DNA of 64,000 nucleotides from Sulfuricella sp. T08 (GTDB lineage Bacteria > Pseudomonadota > Gammaproteobacteria > Burkholderiales > Sulfuricellaceae), in contig NZ_DF967548.1 in assembly GCF_000971475.1 (NCBI RefSeq), positions 62,328 through 126,327 of the forward strand, read 5' to 3'. The notes below the pieces were generated by a model. That model made no database searches. It saw only the letters and a program-made list of their open reading frames with translations, and was not told the DNA's origin. Each line of letters begins with the position of its first letter. Positions within the stretch are counted from its first letter, which is position 1. Made by a program: the position numbers and the translations under genes. Shown here piece by piece: positions 39,241-64,000 of the stretch.

Positions 39241-40584
39241 TCACATGCCGGGCAGCATGCCCTTCATGCCCCTCATCATCTTCGCCATGCCGCCCTTGGC
39301 GACCATCTTCATCATTTTCTGGGTTTGCTCGAACTGGTTCAACAACCGGTTCACTTCCTGTACCTGCACCCCGGCGCCGGCAGCGATGCGGCGCTTGCGC
39401 GAAGCCTTGAGAAGTGCCGGATTGCGGCGCTCTCCCGGTGTCATCGAGTTGATGATGCCCTCGATCCGATTGATCGACTTGTCGTCCGCCATACCCGCCG
39501 CTGCCTGTCCCATCTGTGCCGGCAACTTGTCCATCAGGGCGGCGACACCGCCCATTTTTTTCATTTGTTGCAGCTGCGCCTTGAAATCCTCGAGATCGAA
39601 GCTCTTGCCGGACTTGATTTTCTTTGCCAGTTTGACCGCTTCTTCCTGGTCGACGCCGCGATGGGCTTCTTCAATCAGGGACAACACGTCGCCCATGCCG
39701 AGGATGCGAGAAGCCATCCGCTCCGGATGGAAGGCTTCGAGACCACCTACTTTTTCACCTACGCCAGCGAACTTGATCGGCTTGCCGGTGACCTGGCGCA
39801 CCGACAGCGCTGCACCACCGCGTGCATCGCCGTCGAGCTTGGTGAGCACCACGCCAGTCAGCGGTAACGCTTCACTGAAGGCCTTGGCGGTATTAACCGC
39901 ATCCTGCCCCTGCATGGCGTCGACCACAAATAAGGTCTCTATCGGCTTGAGGACTTCATGCAGGCGCTGGATTTCGGCCATCATGGCTTCGTCTATCGCC
40001 AGACGGCCCGCAGTGTCTATGATCAGGACATCGTGGAAATGCTTGTCGGCGTAATCCCGTGCCGCCAGCGCGATCTGCTCCGGGCTCTGCCCCGCCTCGG
40101 CAGGAAAATAATCCGTCTCGATCTGCTGCGCCAAGGCACGCAACTGTTCCATAGCCGCCGGACGGTAAACGTCGCAACTTGCCAGCAACACCTTTTTCTT
40201 CATCTGCTCACGCAGGTATTTGGCCAGCTTGGCCGAGGTGGTGGTTTTACCTGCACCCTGGAGGCCTGCCATCAGTATCACCGCGGGTGGCAGCGTAGTG
40301 AAATTGAGCGCGGCGTTCTGGCCACCCATCAGTCTGGCCATTTCCTGATGAACGATACCTATCACGGCCTGACCCGGTGTCAGACTGGCGAGTACCTCCT
40401 GGCCCTGTGCACGCTCCTTGACGTGGGCAATGAAATCCTTCACCACCGGCAAGGCAACGTCAGCCTCGAGCAGTGCCATGCGCACCTCGCGCAGGGCGTC
40501 CTGGATATTGGCTTCGGTCAGGCGGGCCTGGCCGCGCAGAGTTTTTATTACACCGGAAAGGCGATTGGTGAGATTGTCGAACAT
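39241..40584 (-). CDS. ffh: Ffh, signal recognition particle protein
   Basis: 447 residues. The N domain (1-95) is followed by the G domain with GLQGAGKTTTSAKLA, DTAGRLAIDEAMM and TKLDGDARGGAAL, and a methionine-rich M domain (about 300-447, ending MKMVAKGGMAKMMRGMKGM) that binds 4.5S RNA and signal peptides. It targets membrane proteins co-translationally with FtsY. It is divergent from the CcsA-like gene. Confidence 0.98.
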   Translation of the reverse strand: MFDNLTNRLSGVIKTLRGQARLTEANIQDALREVRMALLEADVALPVVKDFIAHVKERAQGQEVLASLTPGQAVIGIVHQEMARLMGGQNAALNFTTLPPAVILMAGLQGAGKTTTSAKLAKYLREQMKKKVLLASCDVYRPAAMEQLRALAQQIETDYFPAEAGQSPEQIALAARDYADKHFHDVLIIDTAGRLAIDEAMMAEIQRLHEVLKPIETLFVVDAMQGQDAVNTAKAFSEALPLTGVVLTKLDGDARGGAALSVRQVTGKPIKFAGVGEKVGGLEAFHPERMASRILGMGDVLSLIEEAHRGVDQEEAVKLAKKIKSGKSFDLEDFKAQLQQMKKMGGVAALMDKLPAQMGQAAAGMADDKSINRIEGIINSMTPGERRNPALLKASRKRRIAAGAGVQVQEVNRLLNQFEQTQKMMKMVAKGGMAKMMRGMKGMLPGM

Positions 40585-40676
40585 GGCGGCAAATTGTCCT
40601 GCTGAATGTTAATCCGAATGCGGATAGTGTAGACTTGTGTTTAGAGAAACAATAACGCCGACAAGTTTACAACACA

Positions 40677-41504
40677 ATGAGCGGTTCACTCCATTTCCTC
40701 GCCTTTCTGCTTTACAGCGCGCTCGGCCTGCTTTTCTGGCGCTCGGTCTGGCGCCCCGCCGGCCCAGAAAGGGCACACCACGCTGCCGAAGCCTCAATGG
40801 CCGGGCGGCTTGCCATACTGGTGCCACTCGCGCTGCATGGCGCACTGCTTTATCCCTCCCTACTTCCCGGCGCGGGCCTGAATCTCGGCATCGGCAATAC
40901 TGTATCGGCAATCTCCTGGCTCACCGTACTGGTCTACTGGCTCGCCAGCTTCCATTACAACATGGAAGGCCTGCAAACCCTGGTATTGCCCGGCGCTGCG
41001 ATCTGCCTGCTATTGCCGCTGATTTTTCCGGAAGCGCATACCATCGCCCATACCGAGCTACCGCTTTTCAAGGTTCACTTGCTGATTTCACTGCTCGCCT
41101 ACAGCCTGTTCACTATCGCGGCAGTGCACGCGGTGCTGATGGCACTGGTGGAACGCCGTCTTCACGGCCACGCCCTGTCACGCATCCAGGGTAAATTGCC
41201 ACCCTTGCTGGCAATGGAGGCGTTGCTGTTTCGCATCATCACCGTGGGATTCATACTGCTCACCCTGTCTATCCTGAGCGGCGTGATGTTCTCCGAGGAA
41301 CTCTTCCACAAACCCCTGCAGTTCAACCACAAATCGCTGTTCGCACTGCTTTCCTGGGGTATTTACGCAGCCCTGCTGGGAGGACGGCAAATTTACGGCT
41401 GGCGTGGTCGCACCGCCATCCTCTGGACGCTCGCAGGATTTTCTATGCTGCTGCTGGCTTATCTCGGCAGCAAGTTCGTGCTGGAAGTAATCCTGCAACG
41501 CTGA
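40677..41504 (+). CDS. CcsA/YpjD-type cytochrome c assembly membrane protein
   Basis: 275 residues with about eight membrane helices (FLLYSALGLLFW, LTVLVYWLASFHYN, LLISLLAYSLFTIAAVHAVL, and FALLSWGIYAALLGGRQIYG with the HK/W residues of the haem-handling family). It belongs to the HemX/CcsA superfamily; the E. coli YpjD homologue has no settled role. It precedes the CorC-like gene, its common partner, and is divergent from ffh. Confidence 0.88.
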   Translation: MSGSLHFLAFLLYSALGLLFWRSVWRPAGPERAHHAAEASMAGRLAILVPLALHGALLYPSLLPGAGLNLGIGNTVSAISWLTVLVYWLASFHYNMEGLQTLVLPGAAICLLLPLIFPEAHTIAHTELPLFKVHLLISLLAYSLFTIAAVHAVLMALVERRLHGHALSRIQGKLPPLLAMEALLFRIITVGFILLTLSILSGVMFSEELFHKPLQFNHKSLFALLSWGIYAALLGGRQIYGWRGRTAILWTLAGFSMLLLAYLGSKFVLEVILQR

Positions 41505-41517
41505 AAATGAATGAAGC

Positions 41518-41615
41518 GAGGAGTAAGGGGTTAGGGGTGAGGAGTAAAACCAGGCTCGGTGGCGTTTTTGACTTTACTCCTCACTCCTCACCCCTCACTT
41601 CTACCCCCTAACTCA
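41518..41615. repeat. Degenerate 7-bp repeats arranged as an inverted repeat
   Basis: The left arm (41518-41548) reads as heptamers GAGGAGT-AAGGGGT-TAGGGGT-GAGGAGT then AAAA; the right arm (41573-41615) reads as complementary heptamers ACTCCTC-ACTCCTC-ACCCCTC-ACTTCTA-CCCCCTA. An 11-bp core (TGAGGAGTAAA with TTTACTCCTCA) can pair. It occupies nearly all of the gap between the CcsA-like and CorC-like genes and could fold as a long imperfect hairpin in the transcript. Confidence 0.7.
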
Positions 41616-41627
41616 TCACCTCGAAAA

Positions 41628-42896
41628 ATGGATGACATCCCGTTAAGCGTTCTGCTGGCTGTGCTGGCACTGATTCTGATCGTTTCCGGATTCTTTGCCA
41701 TCGCCGAAACCAGCATGATGGCGCTCAACCGCTACCGCTTGAAGCATCTGGTCAAACACGGCCACCGCGGTGCAAAGCTTACTGCCCATCTGCTCGAAAA
41801 AACCGACAAGCTGCTCGGCGTAATCCTGCTTGGCAACAACCTCCTCAACGCCGCCGCCGCCGCACTGGTCACGGTCATCACTATCAGGCTGTTTGGCGAC
41901 AACGAGTGGTCGTTAACGTTGGGTACACTTGCCGTCACTTTCCTGATCCTGGTGTTTAGCGAAGTCACCCCCAAGGTACTCGGAGCAGCCTATCCAGAAC
42001 GCATCGCGATTCCCTCCAGCTATGTTCTCACGCCGCTGCTCAAGTTGTTTTACCCGGTGATATGGTTCATCAATCTGTTCGTTCGTTCCCTGCTCTGGCT
42101 GCTACGCCTGAAACCTCCCGCCACGGCAACCGCCCTCAACATGGAGGAACTGCGCACGCTGGTGCTGGAAGCAGGCCATTACATTCCGCCCAAGCACCAG
42201 AGCATTTTCCTCAACCTGTTCGAGCTGGAAAACGTCAACGTGGACGATGTCATGATTCCGCGCAACCAGATCGAGGCGATCGACCTTGACGCGCCCGAGG
42301 AAATGATCCGGGAACAGCTCGCTACCAGCCACCACACGAGGCTGCCGGTGTACCGAGGCAGGCTGGACAATATCGTCGGCGTGATCCATATCCGCCATGT
42401 CCTGCACCAGGTTCGCAACAACGAAATCAACACTGAGTTGCTGCGGGAAATCGTGCGTGAACCTTATTTCATCCCCGCCGGAACTTCGCTTTTTTCCCAA
42501 CTGCAACACTTCCAGGAAAATCGCCACCATATCGGACTGGTGGTGGACGAGTATGGCGAACTGCTCGGATTGGTGAGCCTGGAAGACATTCTGGAAGAAA
42601 TCGTCGGCGAATTCGCCTCACGACCTACTGCCCACGGCGGCATTTACCCGCAGGACGACGGTAGTTGGCTGGTCGATGGCGGCTGCTCTCTGCGTGACCT
42701 GAACCGCAAGCTCAAACTCAATTTACCGCTGGATGGCCCTAAAACCCTGAACGGCCTGATTCTCGAACATTTCGAGGATATCCCGGAAGCCGACACCAGC
42801 TTCAAAATCAACGGACTTACACTGGAAATCGTCCAGACTCAGGATCGCATTGTCAAAGTCGTGCGTATTTTCCCACTCTTATCCTCCTCGGAATAG
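41628..42896 (+). CDS. HlyC/CorC (CNNM) family transporter
   Basis: 422 residues from the ATG giving MDDIPLSVLLAVLAL; the frame's upstream part lies in the repeat. A DUF21/CNNM membrane domain with four helices (FFAIAETSMMALNRYRL, LLGNNLLNAAAAALVTV, FSEVTPKVLGAAYPE) is followed by a CBS pair (VMIPRNQIEAIDLD, HTRLPVYRGRLDNIVGVIH, LVVDEYGELLGLVSLEDI) and a CorC_HlyC domain. The family handles Mg/Co ions; the exact substrate is inferred. Confidence 0.92.
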   Translation: MDDIPLSVLLAVLALILIVSGFFAIAETSMMALNRYRLKHLVKHGHRGAKLTAHLLEKTDKLLGVILLGNNLLNAAAAALVTVITIRLFGDNEWSLTLGTLAVTFLILVFSEVTPKVLGAAYPERIAIPSSYVLTPLLKLFYPVIWFINLFVRSLLWLLRLKPPATATALNMEELRTLVLEAGHYIPPKHQSIFLNLFELENVNVDDVMIPRNQIEAIDLDAPEEMIREQLATSHHTRLPVYRGRLDNIVGVIHIRHVLHQVRNNEINTELLREIVREPYFIPAGTSLFSQLQHFQENRHHIGLVVDEYGELLGLVSLEDILEEIVGEFASRPTAHGGIYPQDDGSWLVDGGCSLRDLNRKLKLNLPLDGPKTLNGLILEHFEDIPEADTSFKINGLTLEIVQTQDRIVKVVRIFPLLSSSE

Positions 42897-42971
42897 ACTT
42901 CGCCGTCTTTACAAAAAAACTTGCCAAGTGCATTATTGGGCTGTTTTTAATCCCTAGGCGGACAATCCCAG

Positions 42972-44687
42972 ATGGCAGCAGCAACAACTTCGAGCAAGCT
43001 TAGCGGACTGGCCAACGCACTGGTACAAAGCGGACGCCTGCTGGAGGCCGATGCCGAAGCCATTCAGTCCCAGGCCGGCGCCGATGAGACTGGCTTTGTT
43101 GCCCAGTTGGTGCAAAGCAAAAAAATGAGTTCCCTGGAAGTTGCAGAATTTGCTGCGCGGACATTCGGTTTTCCCCTGCTGGACTTGGCTGCCATCGATG
43201 TGGATCACCTGCCCAATGATGTGCTCGATGCCAAGCTGATCAGAAGCCGGCGCGTTCTAGCCCTGCAAAAGCGCGGTAATCGCCTGTTTATCGCCACCTC
43301 CGATCCAGCCAACTTGCGCGCCCTGGACGATGTGCGTTTCAAAACCAGCCTCACGGTTGAACCGGTGGTGGTAGAGGACGACAAACTCGGCAAGCTGATA
43401 GAAAAAATTGCCGAAGCTACCGACACTACACTACAGAATCTAGCTGGCGAAGACATCAACCTCGAATTTACCGACGAGGAAGCGCTGGCGCAAAAAGATG
43501 AGGGCGCCAGCGCCGAGGTTGATGACGCGCCAGTCGTCCGTTTCCTCCAGAAAATCCTGCTGGACGCAATCAATGCCGGCGTTTCAGATATCCATTTTGA
43601 ACCCTACGAAAAATACTACCGCATCCGCTACCGCCTCGACGGCATACTCTCTGAAGTAGCGCAACCGCCCCTGGCGATCAAGGAAAAGCTCTCGTCCCGC
43701 ATCAAAGTGATTTCCAAGCTCGACATTTCAGAGAAACGGGTGCCCCAGGACGGTCGCATGAAGCTGGTGCTGTCCAAGAACCGCGCCATCGATTTCCGCG
43801 TCAGCACTCTGCCTACTCTGTACGGCGAGAAAATCGTGATGAGGATTCTTGACCCGACCAGCGCCACGCTGGGCGTTGATGCACTGGGCTATGAGCCGGA
43901 CCAAAAAGAGTTGCTGCTCAACGCCGTCCGCCGTCCCTATGGCATGGTGCTGGTAACCGGACCGACTGGTAGCGGAAAAACCGTATCGCTTTATACCTGC
44001 CTGAATATCCTGAACGAACCAGGCGTTAACATCTCCACCGCGGAAGACCCTGCCGAGATCAACCTTCCCGGCGTCAACCAGGTCAACGTCAACGACAAGG
44101 CAGGACTGACCTTCGCTGCAGCACTCAAGTCTTTCCTGCGTCAAGACCCGGATGTCATCATGGTGGGCGAGATCCGCGACCTGGAAACGGCGGACATCTC
44201 TATCAAGGCGGCGCAAACCGGCCACATGGTTCTGTCCACCCTGCACACCAACGATGCCCCCGGCACCTTGACCCGCCTGATGAACATGGGAGTCGCCCCT
44301 TTCAACATCGCCTCCGCGGTAATCCTGATTACCGCACAGCGCCTGGCGCGGCGTCTGTGCAAGTGCAAACAGCCCATCAACATTCCCAGGGAGGCGCTAT
44401 TGCGTGCAGGCTATACCGAAGAAAACCTCGACGGCAGCTGGCAGCCTTATGGCCATATCGGCTGCGATATCTGCAAGGGTACCGGCTACAAGGGGCGCGT
44501 CGGCATTTACCAGGTAATGCCGATCAGTGACGAAATGAGCCGCATCATCATGAAAAATGGCACCGCGCATGACATCGCCGACCAGGCAAAGCGCGAAGGT
44601 GTTCGTGATTTGCGTCAATCCGGCCTGCTCAAGGTAAAAGCCGGACTGACAACGCTGGAAGAAATCGAAGCCGTCACCAACGAGTAA
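42972..44687 (+). CDS. pilB: PilB, type IV pilus extension ATPase
   Basis: 571 residues. An MshE-like N-terminal domain (about 15-150) is followed by the secretion ATPase core: DIHFEPYEKYYRIRYRLDG, Walker A GPTGSGKT near residue 335, the Asp box, Walker B-like VGEIRDLETADISIKAAQTG and the His box HMVLSTLHTNDAP. A tetracysteine zinc site is present (CKCKQ and CDICKGTGYKGRVG). It powers pilin polymerisation at the inner membrane. It starts a pilB-pilC-pilD group. Confidence 0.97.
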   Translation: MAAATTSSKLSGLANALVQSGRLLEADAEAIQSQAGADETGFVAQLVQSKKMSSLEVAEFAARTFGFPLLDLAAIDVDHLPNDVLDAKLIRSRRVLALQKRGNRLFIATSDPANLRALDDVRFKTSLTVEPVVVEDDKLGKLIEKIAEATDTTLQNLAGEDINLEFTDEEALAQKDEGASAEVDDAPVVRFLQKILLDAINAGVSDIHFEPYEKYYRIRYRLDGILSEVAQPPLAIKEKLSSRIKVISKLDISEKRVPQDGRMKLVLSKNRAIDFRVSTLPTLYGEKIVMRILDPTSATLGVDALGYEPDQKELLLNAVRRPYGMVLVTGPTGSGKTVSLYTCLNILNEPGVNISTAEDPAEINLPGVNQVNVNDKAGLTFAAALKSFLRQDPDVIMVGEIRDLETADISIKAAQTGHMVLSTLHTNDAPGTLTRLMNMGVAPFNIASAVILITAQRLARRLCKCKQPINIPREALLRAGYTEENLDGSWQPYGHIGCDICKGTGYKGRVGIYQVMPISDEMSRIIMKNGTAHDIADQAKREGVRDLRQSGLLKVKAGLTTLEEIEAVTNE

Positions 44688-44697
44688 AGGGATAAGC

Positions 44698-45921
44698 ATG
44701 GCCGTCGCAAAAAAAAAGGTAGCAGTGAAAGATCTCCTCTACGCTTGGGAGGGTACGGACAAAAAAGGCAAAACCGTAAAGGGCGAGATGAGCGCACCGG
44801 GTACAGCGGTAGTGCATACCATGCTGCGGCGCCAAGGCATCACCGTTCTCAAGGTTAAAAAACAAGGCGGTTTCGGAAAGGGCAAGAAAGTCACCGACAA
44901 GGACATCTCCCTGTTCACACGGCAACTGGCCGTCATGATGAAGGCGGGTGTGCCGCTGCTCCAGTCCTTCGACATTGTCGGCAAAGGGCACAGCAATCCG
45001 GCCGTATCGAAGCTGCTTGGCAACATCAAGGCCGATATCGAAACCGGCAGCAGCATGAGCCAGGCCTTCCGCAAATATCCTTTGTATTTCGACGCACTGT
45101 ACTGCAACCTGGTCAACGCTGGCGAACAGGCAGGCATTATCGACACGGTACTGGATCGCCTTGCAACCTACAAAGAAAAGATCCTCGCCATCAAGGGCAA
45201 GATCAAATCCGCACTGTTCTATCCCATCTCCATTCTGGTCGTCGCTTTCGTCATCACGGCAATCATCATGATCTTCGTGGTACCGGCGTTCAAGGAACTG
45301 TTTACCAGCTTTGGCGCCGATTTACCCACCCCAACGCTGGTGGTGATGGCCATCTCGGACTTTTTCGTTGCCTACTGGTGGGCAATTTTCGGGAGTATTT
45401 ATGGCGCGTTACAGTTCTTTTTCTACACCTGGAAACGCTCAAAAAAAATGCAGTATTTCATGGATCGCCTGTCTCTCCAGCTACCTATTTTCGGCCCGGT
45501 AATCGAGAAAGCCACTATCGCGCGCTGGACTCGCACCCTGTCGACCATGTTTGCCGCCGGCGTACCCTTGGTTGAAGCACTGGACTCGGTCGGCGGCGCT
45601 GCCGGCAACGCCTTGTATTTTGACGCCACAAAAAAAATCCAGAGCGAAGTCAGCACCGGTACCAGCCTGACCGTGGCGATGCAGAACTCCAATCTGTTTC
45701 CCAACATGGTGCTGCAAATGGTCGCCATTGGCGAGGAATCAGGTGCTTTGGACTCCATGCTCTCCAAGGTGGCCGATTTTTATGAAGCAGAAGTGGACGA
45801 TGCCGTGGAAGCGCTTTCCAGCCTGATGGAACCGATAATCATGGTGGTTCTGGGCGTGATTATCGGCGGCCTGGTTATCGCCATGTATCTGCCGATCTTC
45901 AAGATGGGCCAGGTCGTTTAA
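44698..45921 (+). CDS. pilC: PilC, type IV pilus inner-membrane platform protein
   Basis: 407 residues. Two GspF domains are visible: DISLFTRQLAVMMKAGVPLLQ with FRKYPLYFDALYCNLVNAGE, and WTRTLSTMFAAGVPLVEALD with MVLQMVAIGEESGALDSML. Three membrane segments include FYPISILVVAFVITAIIMIFV. It anchors the PilB motor. It starts ten bases after the pilB stop. Confidence 0.97.
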   Translation: MAVAKKKVAVKDLLYAWEGTDKKGKTVKGEMSAPGTAVVHTMLRRQGITVLKVKKQGGFGKGKKVTDKDISLFTRQLAVMMKAGVPLLQSFDIVGKGHSNPAVSKLLGNIKADIETGSSMSQAFRKYPLYFDALYCNLVNAGEQAGIIDTVLDRLATYKEKILAIKGKIKSALFYPISILVVAFVITAIIMIFVVPAFKELFTSFGADLPTPTLVVMAISDFFVAYWWAIFGSIYGALQFFFYTWKRSKKMQYFMDRLSLQLPIFGPVIEKATIARWTRTLSTMFAAGVPLVEALDSVGGAAGNALYFDATKKIQSEVSTGTSLTVAMQNSNLFPNMVLQMVAIGEESGALDSMLSKVADFYEAEVDDAVEALSSLMEPIIMVVLGVIIGGLVIAMYLPIFKMGQVV

Positions 45922-45940
45922 AACCAGCCCTGAGCGCGGG

Positions 45941-45996
45941 GTGCTGAGTCCTGAGTGGACTGCGCTCAGCGCTTAGGTCTCAGCACTCAGGACTCA
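45941..45996. repeat. Degenerate 7-bp repeats forming an inverted repeat ahead of pilD
   Basis: Eight consecutive heptamers can be read: GTGCTGA-GTCCTGA-GTGGACT-GCGCTCA-GCGCTTA-GGTCTCA-GCACTCA-GGACTCA, ending two bases before the pilD ATG. TGAGTCCTGAGT (45945-45956) pairs perfectly with ACTCAGGACTCA (45985-45996). The only ribosome-binding-site-like AGGA for pilD lies in the 3' arm, so the fold could hide it. Confidence 0.7.
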
Positions 45997-45997
45997 A

Positions 45998-46852
45998 ATG
46001 ATCTTCGAACCCCTGCAATCCTCCCCGGCACTGTACGTTAGTGTGGCCGCACTCCTCGGCCTGATGGTCGGCAGCTTTTTGAACGTCGTCATCCATCGTG
46101 TGCCCCGAATGATGGAACGCGAGTGGCGCGAGCAATGCAACACTTTGGACGGAGAAGAAGCCGCGCCCGCCACACCCTATAACCTGGTTGTTCCGCGCTC
46201 GGCCTGCCCGTCCTGTGGCCACATGATATCGGCATGGGAAAACGTTCCGCTAATTTCCTGGCTGATCTTGCGCGGCCGCTGTGCACACTGCAAGACCCCG
46301 ATCAGCCCACGTTACCCCATAGTCGAGGCCCTTACCGGCATTATCAGCGGCTACGTCGCCTGGCGTTTCGGTTTTGGACCGACCGCCCTGGCCGCCATGC
46401 TCTTCACATGGGCGCTGATCGCACTGACATTCATCGACTTCGACACCCAACTGCTACCGGACAGCATCACCCAACCCCTGATCTGGCTCGGTCTATTGCT
46501 CAATCTCAACGGCTTCTTCACCGGCCTGGACTCCGCCCTGGTCGGGGCAGTGGCAGGTTACCTGTCGCTCTGGAGCGTTTACTGGCTGTTCAAGCTGGTT
46601 ACAAAAAAGGAAGGCATGGGTTACGGTGATTTCAAGCTGCTTGCCGCGATCGGCGCATGGCTGGGCTGGCAGATGTTGCCGCTGGTCATCCTGCTTTCTT
46701 CGCTGGTCGGAGCGACGGTCGGCCTTTCACTGATCCTGTTTGCCGGCCATGGCCGCCAGATTCCGATCCCCTTCGGTCCCTACCTAGCGGGTGGCGGCCT
46801 GATCGCCCTGCTGTGGGGAAAGCAAATCACCCAGGCTTATCTCGGGCTCTAG
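45998..46852 (+). CDS. pilD: PilD, prepilin peptidase and N-methyltransferase
   Basis: 284 residues. The zinc-binding cytoplasmic loop has CPSCG and CAHCK, and RVPRMMEREWREQC is the usual preceding loop. The aspartate-protease residues lie in FIDFDTQLLPD and GYGDFKLLAAIGAWLG (the GxGD motif), within about eight membrane helices. It cleaves and methylates type IV prepilins. It is preceded by a heptamer-repeat hairpin and followed directly by coaE. Confidence 0.97.
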   Translation: MIFEPLQSSPALYVSVAALLGLMVGSFLNVVIHRVPRMMEREWREQCNTLDGEEAAPATPYNLVVPRSACPSCGHMISAWENVPLISWLILRGRCAHCKTPISPRYPIVEALTGIISGYVAWRFGFGPTALAAMLFTWALIALTFIDFDTQLLPDSITQPLIWLGLLLNLNGFFTGLDSALVGAVAGYLSLWSVYWLFKLVTKKEGMGYGDFKLLAAIGAWLGWQMLPLVILLSSLVGATVGLSLILFAGHGRQIPIPFGPYLAGGGLIALLWGKQITQAYLGL

Positions 46853-47464
46853 ATGATGCTGGTGATCGGCCTCACTGGCGGCATCGGCAGCGGAAAGAGC
46901 AGCGCCGCCAGAATTTTTTCCCCCTTGGGCGCCGCAGTTATCGACACCGATGAGATCGCGCATCGCCTGACGGAAAAAGGCACTCCGGCACTTGCCGCCA
47001 TCATCGAGCAGTTCGGTTCCTGCTACCAATTACCGGACGAAAACCTCGACCGTGCCAAGCTGCGCAAACGGATATTTTCCGATCAGGCCGCCAAGGAAAA
47101 ACTGGAAACGCTACTCCATCCTCTGATCAAACAACAGCTCGTCTCGGAAATAGCTAAGGCACGAGGGCCCTATCTGGTGCTAATGATCCCGCTGTTTTTC
47201 GAGACCGGTGCATATCGCGATCTGGTTGACCGGGTACTGGTAGTGGATTGCGATGAAAATCAGCAAATTACCCGAACCATGTCCCGTAGCAAGATTTCCG
47301 CTGATGAGGTTCGAGCCATTATGGCGCACCAGGTTCCTCGCACAGAGCGCATCAAACAAGCCGATGACATCCTGTCCAACCTGGGTAACCAAGCTGATCT
47401 TGAAAAACAAGTCCAGGAACTGCATCAGCATTACTTGACACTGGCATTGCAGCGGCAGGTCTGA
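46853..47464 (+). CDS. coaE: CoaE, dephospho-CoA kinase
   Basis: 203 residues. The P-loop is GLTGGIGSGKSSAARIF, followed by IDTDEIAHRLTEKG, LHPLIKQQLVSEI and VVDCDENQQITRTMSRSK. It phosphorylates the 3' hydroxyl of dephospho-CoA, the last step of CoA synthesis. It begins right after the pilD stop; pilD-coaE-zapD-yacG is a widespread gene order. Confidence 0.96.
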   Translation: MMLVIGLTGGIGSGKSSAARIFSPLGAAVIDTDEIAHRLTEKGTPALAAIIEQFGSCYQLPDENLDRAKLRKRIFSDQAAKEKLETLLHPLIKQQLVSEIAKARGPYLVLMIPLFFETGAYRDLVDRVLVVDCDENQQITRTMSRSKISADEVRAIMAHQVPRTERIKQADDILSNLGNQADLEKQVQELHQHYLTLALQRQV

Positions 47465-47581
47465 TACCGCTTTACTAAAAACCAAAACAATTCAAGGTTT
47501 CATGTAATTATGTTAATACAAATTATTGTCAGATCGCTTATAATTCGGCAGTATTGAACTTTGCCGACCCCAGACCCGACA

Positions 47582-48337
47582 GTGATCACCTACGACCACC
47601 CTCTTAACGAGCGGATTCGCACTCTCCTGCGACTGGAGGATCTCTATGCCAAAGCGCATTACTTTTCCTCCCAGTCGCATCAGATGGATCACCACGCCGC
47701 ACTGCTGGTTGTGTTCGAAATTCTGGAAGTTTCCTGCCGTGCCGATCTAAAATCCGACCTGCTCCAGGAACTGGAGCGGCAGAAGCAAACCCTGGAAGCC
47801 CTGCGCAACAATCCCGCCATTTCGGAAATAGCCTTGAATGAAGTGCTGCGCGATATCGACAATGTCGCCGGCCTTCTGCACAGCCTGCCTGGCAAGATCG
47901 GCCAGCACCTGCGCGAAAATGAATGGCTGATGAGCATCAAGCAGCGCACCTCCATCCCCGGCGGAGTGTGCGAATTCGACCTGCCTTCCTATCATTTCTG
48001 GCTGAACCAGGATGAAAGTCTGCGTCGCTTGAATCTGACGGAATGGCTGGCACCGATGCTGCCAATTCGAGATGGATTGAGGATCATCTTGCGCATGCTG
48101 CGAGACAGCGGCAAGTCCAGCCACCACTCCGCACCGCAAGGCGCATTTCAGCAGATGCTGAGCGGCAGAGTGGCACAGATGCTGCGCATCTCAGTCGCAC
48201 GCGACTTACCCTGTTTCCCAGAAATCAGCGCCAACAAATACGCGATCAACATCCGCTTCACCGCTCTGGGCGGCCCCCAGAAGCCACGAGGATGCGACAC
48301 TGACGTCGAATTTGATTTAACCCTTTGCAACCTTTAA
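47582..48337 (+). CDS. zapD: ZapD, FtsZ-bundling cell-division protein
   Basis: 251 residues from the GTG giving (M)ITYDHPLNERIRTLLRLED, which matches the family N-terminus; a TTG seven codons earlier is the alternative. Further family segments are HHAALLVVFEILEVSCRADL and LPSYHFWLNQDESLRRLNL. It cross-links FtsZ filaments at the division ring. A TATAAT at 47539-47544 may be its -10 box, but no good -35 is seen. Confidence 0.93.
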   Translation: MITYDHPLNERIRTLLRLEDLYAKAHYFSSQSHQMDHHAALLVVFEILEVSCRADLKSDLLQELERQKQTLEALRNNPAISEIALNEVLRDIDNVAGLLHSLPGKIGQHLRENEWLMSIKQRTSIPGGVCEFDLPSYHFWLNQDESLRRLNLTEWLAPMLPIRDGLRIILRMLRDSGKSSHHSAPQGAFQQMLSGRVAQMLRISVARDLPCFPEISANKYAINIRFTALGGPQKPRGCDTDVEFDLTLCNL

Positions 48338-60857: not shown

Positions 60858-61775
60858 TCATCCCGCTCGCGCCAGTTCAAGAACCTTGATCACCAAATCT
60901 TCAAAGCTCAGGCCTGCGGCCCGCGCCGCCATCGGCACCAGGCTATGGTCGGTCATTCCGGGCGAGGTATTGGCTTCCAGCAGGTACGGCTTGCCCGCCG
61001 CGTCGAGCAGGAAATCCACCCGCCCCCAGCCGGCGCCACCGATCACCGCGTAGCCCTGCTTTGCCAAACGCTGAATTTCGCTCTCCTGTTCCGCTGACAG
61101 CCCGCACGGGCAAAGGTAGCGGGTGTCGTCGCGCAGGTATTTTGCCTCGTAATCGTAGAACTCGTTGGCCGGCTCGATCTTGATCACCGGCAGTGTCTCG
61201 CTGCCGAGGATCGCGACGGTGTACTCTCCGCCACCGACGAACTGTTCGGCGATCACCAAATCGTCGTAGCGCGCCGCCAGTTCGTAAGCAGCGCGCAGAT
61301 CTGCGACTGTCTTCACCTTGCTGATGCCGACGCTGGAGCCCTCGTTAGCCGGCTTGACGAACAGCGGCAAGCCGAGGCGCGCGGCGACAGCCGCGAAATC
61401 GCTGGCGGCATCAAGCAACTCGTAGGCGGGTACCGGCAATCCCGCCGCCTGCCACACCAGCTTGCTGCGCCATTTGTCCATGGCCAGGGCAGACGCCAGC
61501 ACACCGCTTCCGGTATAGGGAATATCCAGCAGGGCCAGCGCGCCCTGCACCGTACCGTCCTCGCCTTGACCGCCGTGCAGGGTGATAAAGACACGCTGGT
61601 AACCATCCCGCTTCAGTTCACCTAACTCCCGCTCGGCCGGATCGAACGCATGCGCATCGACGCCGCTGCGCTTGAGCGCCGCCAGCACCGCATTGCCGCT
61701 TTTAAGCGACACCTCGCGCTCTGCGGATTTTCCGCCCAGCAGCACCGCGACCTTGCCGAATTCCTCTGCTTTCAT
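60858..61775 (-). CDS. ddl: Ddl, D-alanine-D-alanine ligase
   Basis: 305 residues. ATP-grasp enzyme: [40 protein letters not shown], the [13 protein letters not shown] loop, and [20 protein letters not shown]. It makes the dipeptide that MurF adds to peptidoglycan precursors. Its ATG overlaps the murB stop by one base. Confidence 0.97.
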
Positions 61776-62776: not shown

Positions 62777-64000
62777 TTAGAGGGACGCCCCGCCCCGCGT
62801 CAAATTGCCCGCCACCTGGCCGATCGAGCCGGCACCCATGGTCAGCACCACATCGCCGTCCCGCGCCGCATTCAGAATTTCACCCGGCAGTTCCGCCACT
62901 GTTTCCACGAAAATCGGCTCAACCTTGCCCGCGACCCTGATGGCACGCGCCAATGCTCTGCCGTCTGCGGCTACGATCGGCGCTTCGCCGGCCGGATAGA
63001 TTTCGGTCAGCAACAGGGCGTCGACGGTCGACAGCACCTTGACGAAATCCTCGAACAAATCGCGAGTGCGGGTGTAACGGTGCGGCTGGAATGCCAACAC
63101 CAGCCTCCGACCCGGGAATGCACCTCGCGCCGCCGCCAGGGTCGCCGCCATTTCCACTGGGTGATGGCCATAATCGTCAATTAAAGTAAAACTTCCACTC
63201 CCGCTTGCGGGAGCGGAAACGATCGCCCTTTCTCCCGCTTGCGGGAGAGAGTTGGAGAGAGGGTGATCAGGCAATATGACCTCGCCATAACGTTCGAAGC
63301 GCCGTCCAACCCCGCTGAATTCGGCCAATCCCTTGACGATGGCCGTATCCGGCGCACCCACTTCCATCGCCACCGCAATCGCCGCAAGCGCATTCAACAC
63401 GTTATGCTGGCCGGGCATGTTGAGCGTCACCGCCAGTTCCGGCAGACCGGCTCGTTGCACCTTGAAATCCATCCGGCCGCCGCAATGACCAAGATCCGTA
63501 CCCCGAACCTGCGCGCCTTCTTCCAGGCCATAGGTAGTCACCGGCTTGGTAATGCGCGGCATGATTTCGCGTACGTTTGCATCGTCTGAGCACAATACCG
63601 CCATGCCGTAGAAAGGCAGGCGCTGGACGAAGTCGACGAAGGCCTGTTTCAACCGGTTAAAATCATGGCCGTAGGTTTCCATATGGTCGGCGTCGATATT
63701 GGTCACCACCGCCATCACCGGCATCAGGTAGAGGAAGGAGGCATCGGACTCATCCGCCTCGGCGACGATGAATTCGCCTTGGCCCAGCCGCGCATTGGCA
63801 CCGGCGGCCTCCAGCTTGCCGCCGATAACGAAAGTCGGGTCCATACCTGCCTCGCCGAGTATGCTGGCGATCAGGCTGGTAGTTGTAGTCTTGCCGTGGG
63901 TGCCGGCCACTGCAATGCCCTGTTTGAAGCGCATCAGCTCCGCCAGCATCATGGCGCGAGGCACCACCGGGATGTTGCGCTCCCGCGCAGCCGCCACTTC
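62777..64000 (-). CDS. murC: MurC, UDP-N-acetylmuramate-L-alanine ligase (N-terminal part outside window)
   Basis: About 408 residues are visible and the frame is open to the window's end, so the first 70 or so residues are missing. Central ATPase domain: [59 protein letters not shown]. The C-terminal domain has [20 protein letters not shown] and [20 protein letters not shown]. Between [10 protein letters not shown] and [10 protein letters not shown] there are about 20 extra residues, encoded by a palindromic repeat inserted in frame. The enzyme adds the first amino acid of the peptidoglycan stem peptide. Confidence 0.96.
63187..63272. repeat. Palindromic repeat inserted in frame within murC
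   Basis: Two copies of the palindrome CTCCCGCTTGCGGGAG (63198-63213 and, with one more base at each end, 63231-63248) are followed by GAGTTGGAGAGAGGGTG. This combination looks like the dispersed intergenic hairpin repeats of betaproteobacteria. Here it lies inside the murC reading frame and encodes about 20 residues ([20 protein letters not shown] and a Ser/Gly/Ala-rich end) in the loop before the conserved DDYGHHP motif. Confidence 0.75.

Follow-up and report, generated by a model that had tools for sequence, protein, structure and literature searches.

The hairpin ahead of pilD in Sulfuricella sp. T08 is probably a copy of a dispersed heptamer element that affects pilD incidentally

Introduction

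In a 64,000-nucleotide stretch of the Sulfuricella sp. T08 genome (hereafter the window; the genome itself is G000), the gap between pilC and pilD holds a tract of degenerate heptamers that folds over the presumed ribosome-binding site of pilD. A first-pass annotation of the sequence proposed that pilD translation could depend on repeat number or on unfolding of the RNA. The question raised by this locus is whether the hairpin is there to control pilD or for another reason. We consider it likely that the tract is one copy of an intergenic heptamer hairpin that is dispersed through the genome and turns over between species, its effect on pilD being incidental.

Results

Layout and predicted fold of the pilC-pilD gap

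The hairpin tract was found where it had been described (45941-45997), with small corrections. The features of the region are as follows:

44698-45921, forward strand: pilC open reading frame (T2SSF domain, PF00482)
45922-45997, forward strand: pilC-pilD gap of 76 nt, filled entirely by the heptamer element (from ORF limits and sequence)
45928-45955, forward strand: 5' arm, CCCTGAG CGCGGGG TGCTGAG TCCTGAG (from sequence)
45945-45957, forward strand: 5' half of a 13-bp perfect inverted repeat (repeat search)
45965-45996, forward strand: 3' arm, CTCAGCG CTTAGGT CTCAGCA CTCAGGA CTCA (from sequence)
45984-45996, forward strand: 3' half of the 13-bp perfect inverted repeat (repeat search)
45989-45992, forward strand: AGGA within the 3' arm, presumed Shine-Dalgarno sequence of pilD (from sequence)
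45998-46852, forward strand: pilD prepilin peptidase open reading frame (PF06750, PF01478)

The inverted repeat is perfect, as first described, but measures 13 bp rather than 12 and stops one base short of the ATG rather than two; its halves are separated by 26 nt. The units are degenerate TGAG/CTCA heptamers that form no perfect array in this genome, and GTGGACT, counted among the original eight, is loop. The left limit first given fell short by two heptamer-length units, which begin at 45928. AGGA does occur only once in the gap, inside the 3' arm, and lies 5 nt from the pilD ATG at 45998. The tract contains a single run of three or more G residues.

Perfect stems of at least 13 bp (loop up to 60) were found at only two places in the window, the pilD tract and a tract at 41.5 kb:

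41518-41622, forward strand: sister element of the GRGTGAG family, a larger hairpin (fold z -5.2), flanked by genes for a cytochrome c assembly protein and for CNNM/CorC

The claim that the two tracts differ in unit sequence was only half right, as both are built from CTCANNN / NNNTGAG and differ in the NNN. A stem of at least 13 bp appeared in 18 of 100 dinucleotide shuffles of the window, and a stem of at least 12 bp with equal period-7 matching in none of the 100, which places the tract outside chance expectation.

The RNA from 45900 to 46030 has a predicted folding energy of -51.5 kcal/mol (z -2.2; 6 of 200 shuffles were equally good), and the core hairpin is predicted at -31.2 kcal/mol. 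The presumed Shine-Dalgarno sequence is paired in the predicted mRNA fold, and the core hairpin is still predicted when the stretch that a ribosome terminating on pilC would cover (to 45933) is held unpaired. The stem is not among the calls of a terminator scan and does not have the form of an intrinsic terminator (a GC hairpin followed by a T run), there being no T run after it on either strand. Scanning 40000-48000 gave no Rfam match at the gathering threshold.

Predicted effect of the hairpin on pilD translation

Sequestration of the Shine-Dalgarno sequence, as the first-pass annotation had suggested, is possible in the predicted fold, including the fold with the pilC ribosome span open. 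The predicted cost of opening positions -15 to +3 of pilD is 9.5 kcal/mol in this genome, compared with a median of 6.9 kcal/mol for the ATG genes of the window (n=25), four of which cost 9.5 kcal/mol or more. Among the 17 genomes computed, this value ranks fourth, behind G011 (14.6 kcal/mol), G001 (10.1) and G016 (9.9). The corresponding costs are 7.1 in G005, 5.9 in G006 and 4.7 in G007, with the remaining twelve genomes between 2.9 and 10.1 kcal/mol; four of them in which other hairpins occupy the gap (G003, G004, G008 and G009) have pilD starts that are cheaper to open, at 2.9-6.0 kcal/mol. The opening costs of these 17 genomes gave no evidence of a genus-wide occlusion of the pilD start. 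On these models the occlusion in G000 is moderate and the hairpin likely dampens pilD initiation somewhat. Such dampening is not unusual, because 9.5 kcal/mol stands against a median of 6.9 and is reached by four of 25 genes, and the occlusion is not conserved.

A possible constraint on the element emerged from the comparison with the sister genome G011, in which the core (45941-45997) is identical at 57 of 57 positions. At four-fold sites in the end of pilC and the start of pilD, 45 of 176 positions differ between the two genomes (25.6%). Identity over the whole core would have a chance of 5e-8 at the four-fold rate and 2e-3 at 10% divergence, which suggests constraint at pilC-pilD; a constrained role of the core hairpin is thus possible, judging from the sequence comparison. 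However, G005, which is about 93-95% identical to G011 around pilC-pilD and closer to it, has lost most of the element, and any constraint is therefore not common to the nearest relatives. A donor for gene conversion was also sought and rejected as a source of the identical cores: a 68-bp core query against the 12 genomes of the genus found no other near-full copy, and the closest hit elsewhere, at 82% over 56 bp, was the pilC-pilD gap of G006.

These data bear on the idea of translational control, in which the hairpin would hide the Shine-Dalgarno sequence and AUG of pilD until unfolded by temperature, an RNA-binding protein, a helicase or the pilC ribosome. The position of the Shine-Dalgarno sequence within the 3' arm, the opening costs in G011 and G000 and the identical core all speak for such control. 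We nevertheless consider it unlikely, as equally or more closed starts are found in the window itself, G007 lacks the element, and most replacements leave the Shine-Dalgarno sequence free. Moreover, the same elements adjoin many unrelated genes and occur inside coding sequences. The effect on pilD is probably incidental to where the hairpin lies, with no dedicated switch.

The element belongs to a dispersed family

A search for CTCANNN repeated four times with up to two mismatches gave 91 matches in the 3.42-Mb genome, which were merged by hand into 47 loci and each fetched. With up to one mismatch there were 53 matches, compared with a single match, itself inside a heptamer element, for ACCTNNN x4, a control of the same composition. 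(A reversed-pattern control was dropped for CTCANNN and replaced by ACCTNNN: ACTC occurs within GGACTCA too, and this control scored almost as many matches.) Heptamer tracts were present in all 12 genomes of the genus, with 13 to 158 matches each. At least three unit families exist: GRGTGAG, represented at 41.5 kb, TSCTGAG, to which the pilD tract belongs, and TGATGAG.

The elements typically occupy short gaps; by approximate gene calls, the 47 loci comprise 34 gaps between co-directional genes, 2 convergent and 3 divergent gaps, 5 positions inside ORFs and 3 contig ends. Housekeeping genes are among those flanking the family genome-wide. In the genes for CysRS and a 2-oxoacid dehydrogenase E2, heptamers encode residues between Pfam domains; in-ORF tracts at L085 (CysRS), L091 (E2), L100 and L104 read as PHPSPLT-like peptides.

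Arm structure was compared in 105 elements drawn from the loci of G000 and G011 and from some of those of G005; 71 had recognised units in both arms, and the other 34 were dropped. Both arms carried the same unit family in 67 of the 71, and the order TGAG..CTCA was found in 68 and the reversed order in none. The 55 listed NNCTGAG runs most often had four units, a length that may include a first unit picked up by chance by the run finder. By eye, TCCTGAG-TTGCGAG-TGCTGAG-TCCTGAG looked like a plausible single ordered ancestral arm, an idea given up when the run table proved too mixed. TCCTGAG-type tracts lie at, or next to, the ends of some contigs of G011 and of C62 of this genome. Separately, repeated CTCCCGCTTGCGGGAG palindromes occupy 63184-63260 of the window and are lacking at the same place in G005.

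Turnover between sister species

Of 22 G000 element loci matched to G011 stretches, two were one-sided and dropped (L093, L103), leaving 20 aligned junctions. Five were near-identical (L058, L064, L067, which is the pilD locus, L084 and L085), and by eye ten kept the unit family with changed units, while five differed in unit family between conserved flanks (L065, L066, L073, L094, L099). In L065, L073 and L094, GRGTGAG in G000 corresponds to TSCTGAG in G011; L066 changed to a TGATGAG-like form and L099 from mixed to pure TSCTGAG. At 61761-61772, 12 bp in this genome stand where G005 has a GRGTGAG hairpin and G011 also has a tract (L218, ~11323; L283), a difference of presence and absence. The junction of the 41518-41622 element holds a TGATGAG-like hairpin in G011 and a shorter, different sequence in G005. 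That both arms change together while the orientation stays the same suggests movement or conversion of the entire hairpin.

Within arms, own arms beat arms swapped in from other loci of the same family in fractions of only 0.42 (GRGTGAG) and 0.37 (NNCTGAG). Own arms thus pair no better than swapped ones, and arm-to-arm templated copying or strict compensatory evolution is unsupported beyond family identity. Unit number also changes: the TCCTGAG array of L077 (~1534) in this genome has 13-14 units compared with two or three in its G011 orthologue, and a TCCTGAG array in G005 (L298, ~1002) reaches 26.

Such differences might recall phase variation, with pilD switched by changes in the copy number of a simple sequence repeat. 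Repeat number at pilC-pilD does vary between species, each represented by one genome: eight perfect GGACTCA units in G006, few units in G005 and none in G007. Phase variation is nonetheless extremely improbable, given that the G000 units are degenerate, that the G000 and G011 cores are identical across about 10% divergence, and that housekeeping genes flank the family elsewhere.

The pilC-pilD gap across relatives

PilD turned up in 76 of the 80 related genomes; most of those with names are MAGs carrying labels such as Sulfuricella and Gallionellaceae. G011 has the same element, with the 5' arm TCCTGAG TGCCGGG TGCTGAG TCCTGAG. G006 has a left arm followed by its tandem GGACTCA array, and the element of G005 is shrunken. 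G007, a MAG that is apparently one record with L135, has TAA AAACAA ATG, a stop-to-ATG gap of 6 nt. GTAG-type palindromes replace the heptamer element in several relatives. The gaps of G001, G004, G008 and G009 contain GTAGGAGCGGC-like or related palindromes, and G003 has another hairpin. CAGGAC is present just before the ATG in G001, G003, G008 and G009 as well, and the pilD Shine-Dalgarno sequence therefore probably predates the heptamers.

A survey of 110 loci yielded 88 distinct pilC-pilD gaps. Among the 55 gaps of 40-300 nt, 35 contained a perfect stem of at least 8 bp and 14 a period of seven (p<=0.01); nine of these 14 were heptamer tracts by eye, four of them in the genus itself and five, in other dialects, beyond its limits (L146, L155, L170, L174, L183). 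One such dialect, CACTNNC, was dispersed in G080, G081 and G082 (58, 33 and 59 matches, compared with 3, 1 and 0 for the reversed control) and gave 5 matches against 0 in G044. It is not general: two of the six genomes, G083 and G084, had no matches, and the reversed control gave 11 in G083. In L125, L141, L148 and L157 (Gallionellaceae/Sideroxydans), the gap holds a terminator-like hairpin, GGCGCGGC..GCCGCGCC with a T run, suggesting that pilC and pilD are separate at the transcript level there.

This survey raises the possibility that an intercistronic hairpin is selected as such, free in sequence, and separates pilC from pilD by 3'-end protection, partial termination or processing. Stems in 35 of 55 gaps (measured for pilC-pilD alone), the unrelated kinds to which they belong (heptamers, GTAG-type palindromes, terminator-like hairpins with T runs) and the location of 34 of 47 elements between co-directional genes are what such selection would lead one to expect. 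But 30 of the 88 gaps are shorter than 30 nt, too short for a hairpin of this kind, the pilD stem has no T run behind it, and some elements lie inside ORFs; we regard this explanation as rather unlikely.

Tentatively, the observations could be extended to a broader picture of lineage-specific heptamer-hairpin dialects in many Nitrosomonadales genomes. Operon junctions would act as fixed addresses, at which whole hairpins, both arms in one orientation, are swapped without a transposase, for example by copying through template switching at hairpins, so that the fold rather than the sequence is kept. This wider generalization is possible but doubtful.

Origin and spread of the hairpins

The reading that we prefer, of the pilD tract as a copy of a dispersed and turning-over hairpin, would work as follows. 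Whole hairpins may be copied into, or swapped at, permissive sites such as short operon gaps and protein linkers, where the arrays would lengthen or shorten by 7-bp slippage; the arrays of 13-14 and 26 units fit such slippage. At pilC-pilD the outcome would be an intercistronic mRNA hairpin, with a core predicted at about -31 kcal/mol and the presumed Shine-Dalgarno sequence in its 3' arm, which would probably lower pilD initiation modestly and uncouple it from the termination of pilC, an incidental result of its position.

Neither a transposase nor an insertion signature was linked to the heptamer family. The candidate known from other dispersed hairpins is a RAYT (Y1) transposase moving REP/REPIN-type palindromes. 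Y1_Tnp matches, a level of assignment that covers RAYT without subtyping it, occur in 11 of 12 genus genomes, with nine in G000; the hairpin shape and the GTAG-type palindromes at the same place in several relatives also fit. Against this, G005 (99% complete, 2 contigs) has 137 heptamer-tract matches and no Y1_Tnp match, and the pilD element carries no GTAG (or CGTC) tag. With so element-rich a genome free of a Y1 transposase match, RAYT-driven movement is disfavoured and we judge it very unlikely. Separately, G005 contains a MITE-like insertion of 270 bp (L217, 7865-8134) relative to window position 40601/40602. Its ends are imperfect inverted repeats (GGCTCGTTAATGG... / ...CCATTAACGAGCC), and its interior contains long palindromes.

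Comparison with known systems

The open-licence papers searched contained no description of this heptamer family in Sulfuricella or its relatives. The kind, dispersed heptameric repeats, is already known, and the Sulfuricella family is apparently undescribed in those papers. According to Rehm et al. 2015 (PMC4692102), heptamer repeats are over-represented in bacteria, which is unexplained, and G-rich GGGNATC repeats occur in Xanthomonas and Nostoc, with a quadruplex proposed. The repeats described there most often number four units. They resemble the present family in being 7-bp tandem units that are dispersed, mostly between aligned ORFs, and hug stop or start codons; in often forming convergent (inverted) pairs in Xanthomonas; and in persisting at a given junction across sister species while their length changes, with no tie to gene function. 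The elements described here likewise consist of tandem 7-bp units, lie dispersed mostly between aligned ORFs and form inverted pairs. Their units (NNCTGAG, GRGTGAG, TGATGAG) are not the quadruplex-capable GGGNATC / GGGGAYT, and they differ from the repeats of PMC4692102 in having several families per genome and whole-hairpin family differences between sisters. A quadruplex cannot underlie the pilD-type unit because TSCTGAG has no G-tract, and the quadruplex idea cannot cover this family.

A second parallel is the P6b stem of the Nostoc trnL intron, which PMC4476775 describes as built of degenerate heptanucleotides, with one class at a time, repeated replacement of the whole stem by another class and length changes of 7 nt. 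That stem is a single site in a cyanobacterial tRNA-Leu group I intron, whereas the present elements occupy many sites between protein genes genome-wide. In Sulfuricella, too, one repeat class makes up both sides of the stem and classes are replaced between lineages. The Class II consensus of Costa in 2002 is said to be NNTGAGT, which would resemble the pilD unit.

Three further systems were compared. The TAACTGA repeats of marine Beggiatoaceae (PMC4679880) are direct repeats of one unit that form no hairpins and have no Shine-Dalgarno character. The heptanucleotides of Geobacter metallireducens (PMC2700814) are similar in occurring as four to five tandem units at tens of intergenic and intragenic places; they differ in unit (GGACCGG, MTYCTGA) and are annotated there as putative regulatory sites. 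REP/REPIN elements (PMC3116915, PMC3733652) are also dispersed intergenic hairpins, but they have no heptamer structure, and the GTAG tag and RAYT association are theirs. Set beside these systems, the finding that both arms change unit family while the junction stays fixed offers a direct handle on how heptamer hairpins originate and spread, and the pilD case advises caution against reading a hairpin that covers a Shine-Dalgarno sequence as a designed switch when its family is dispersed.
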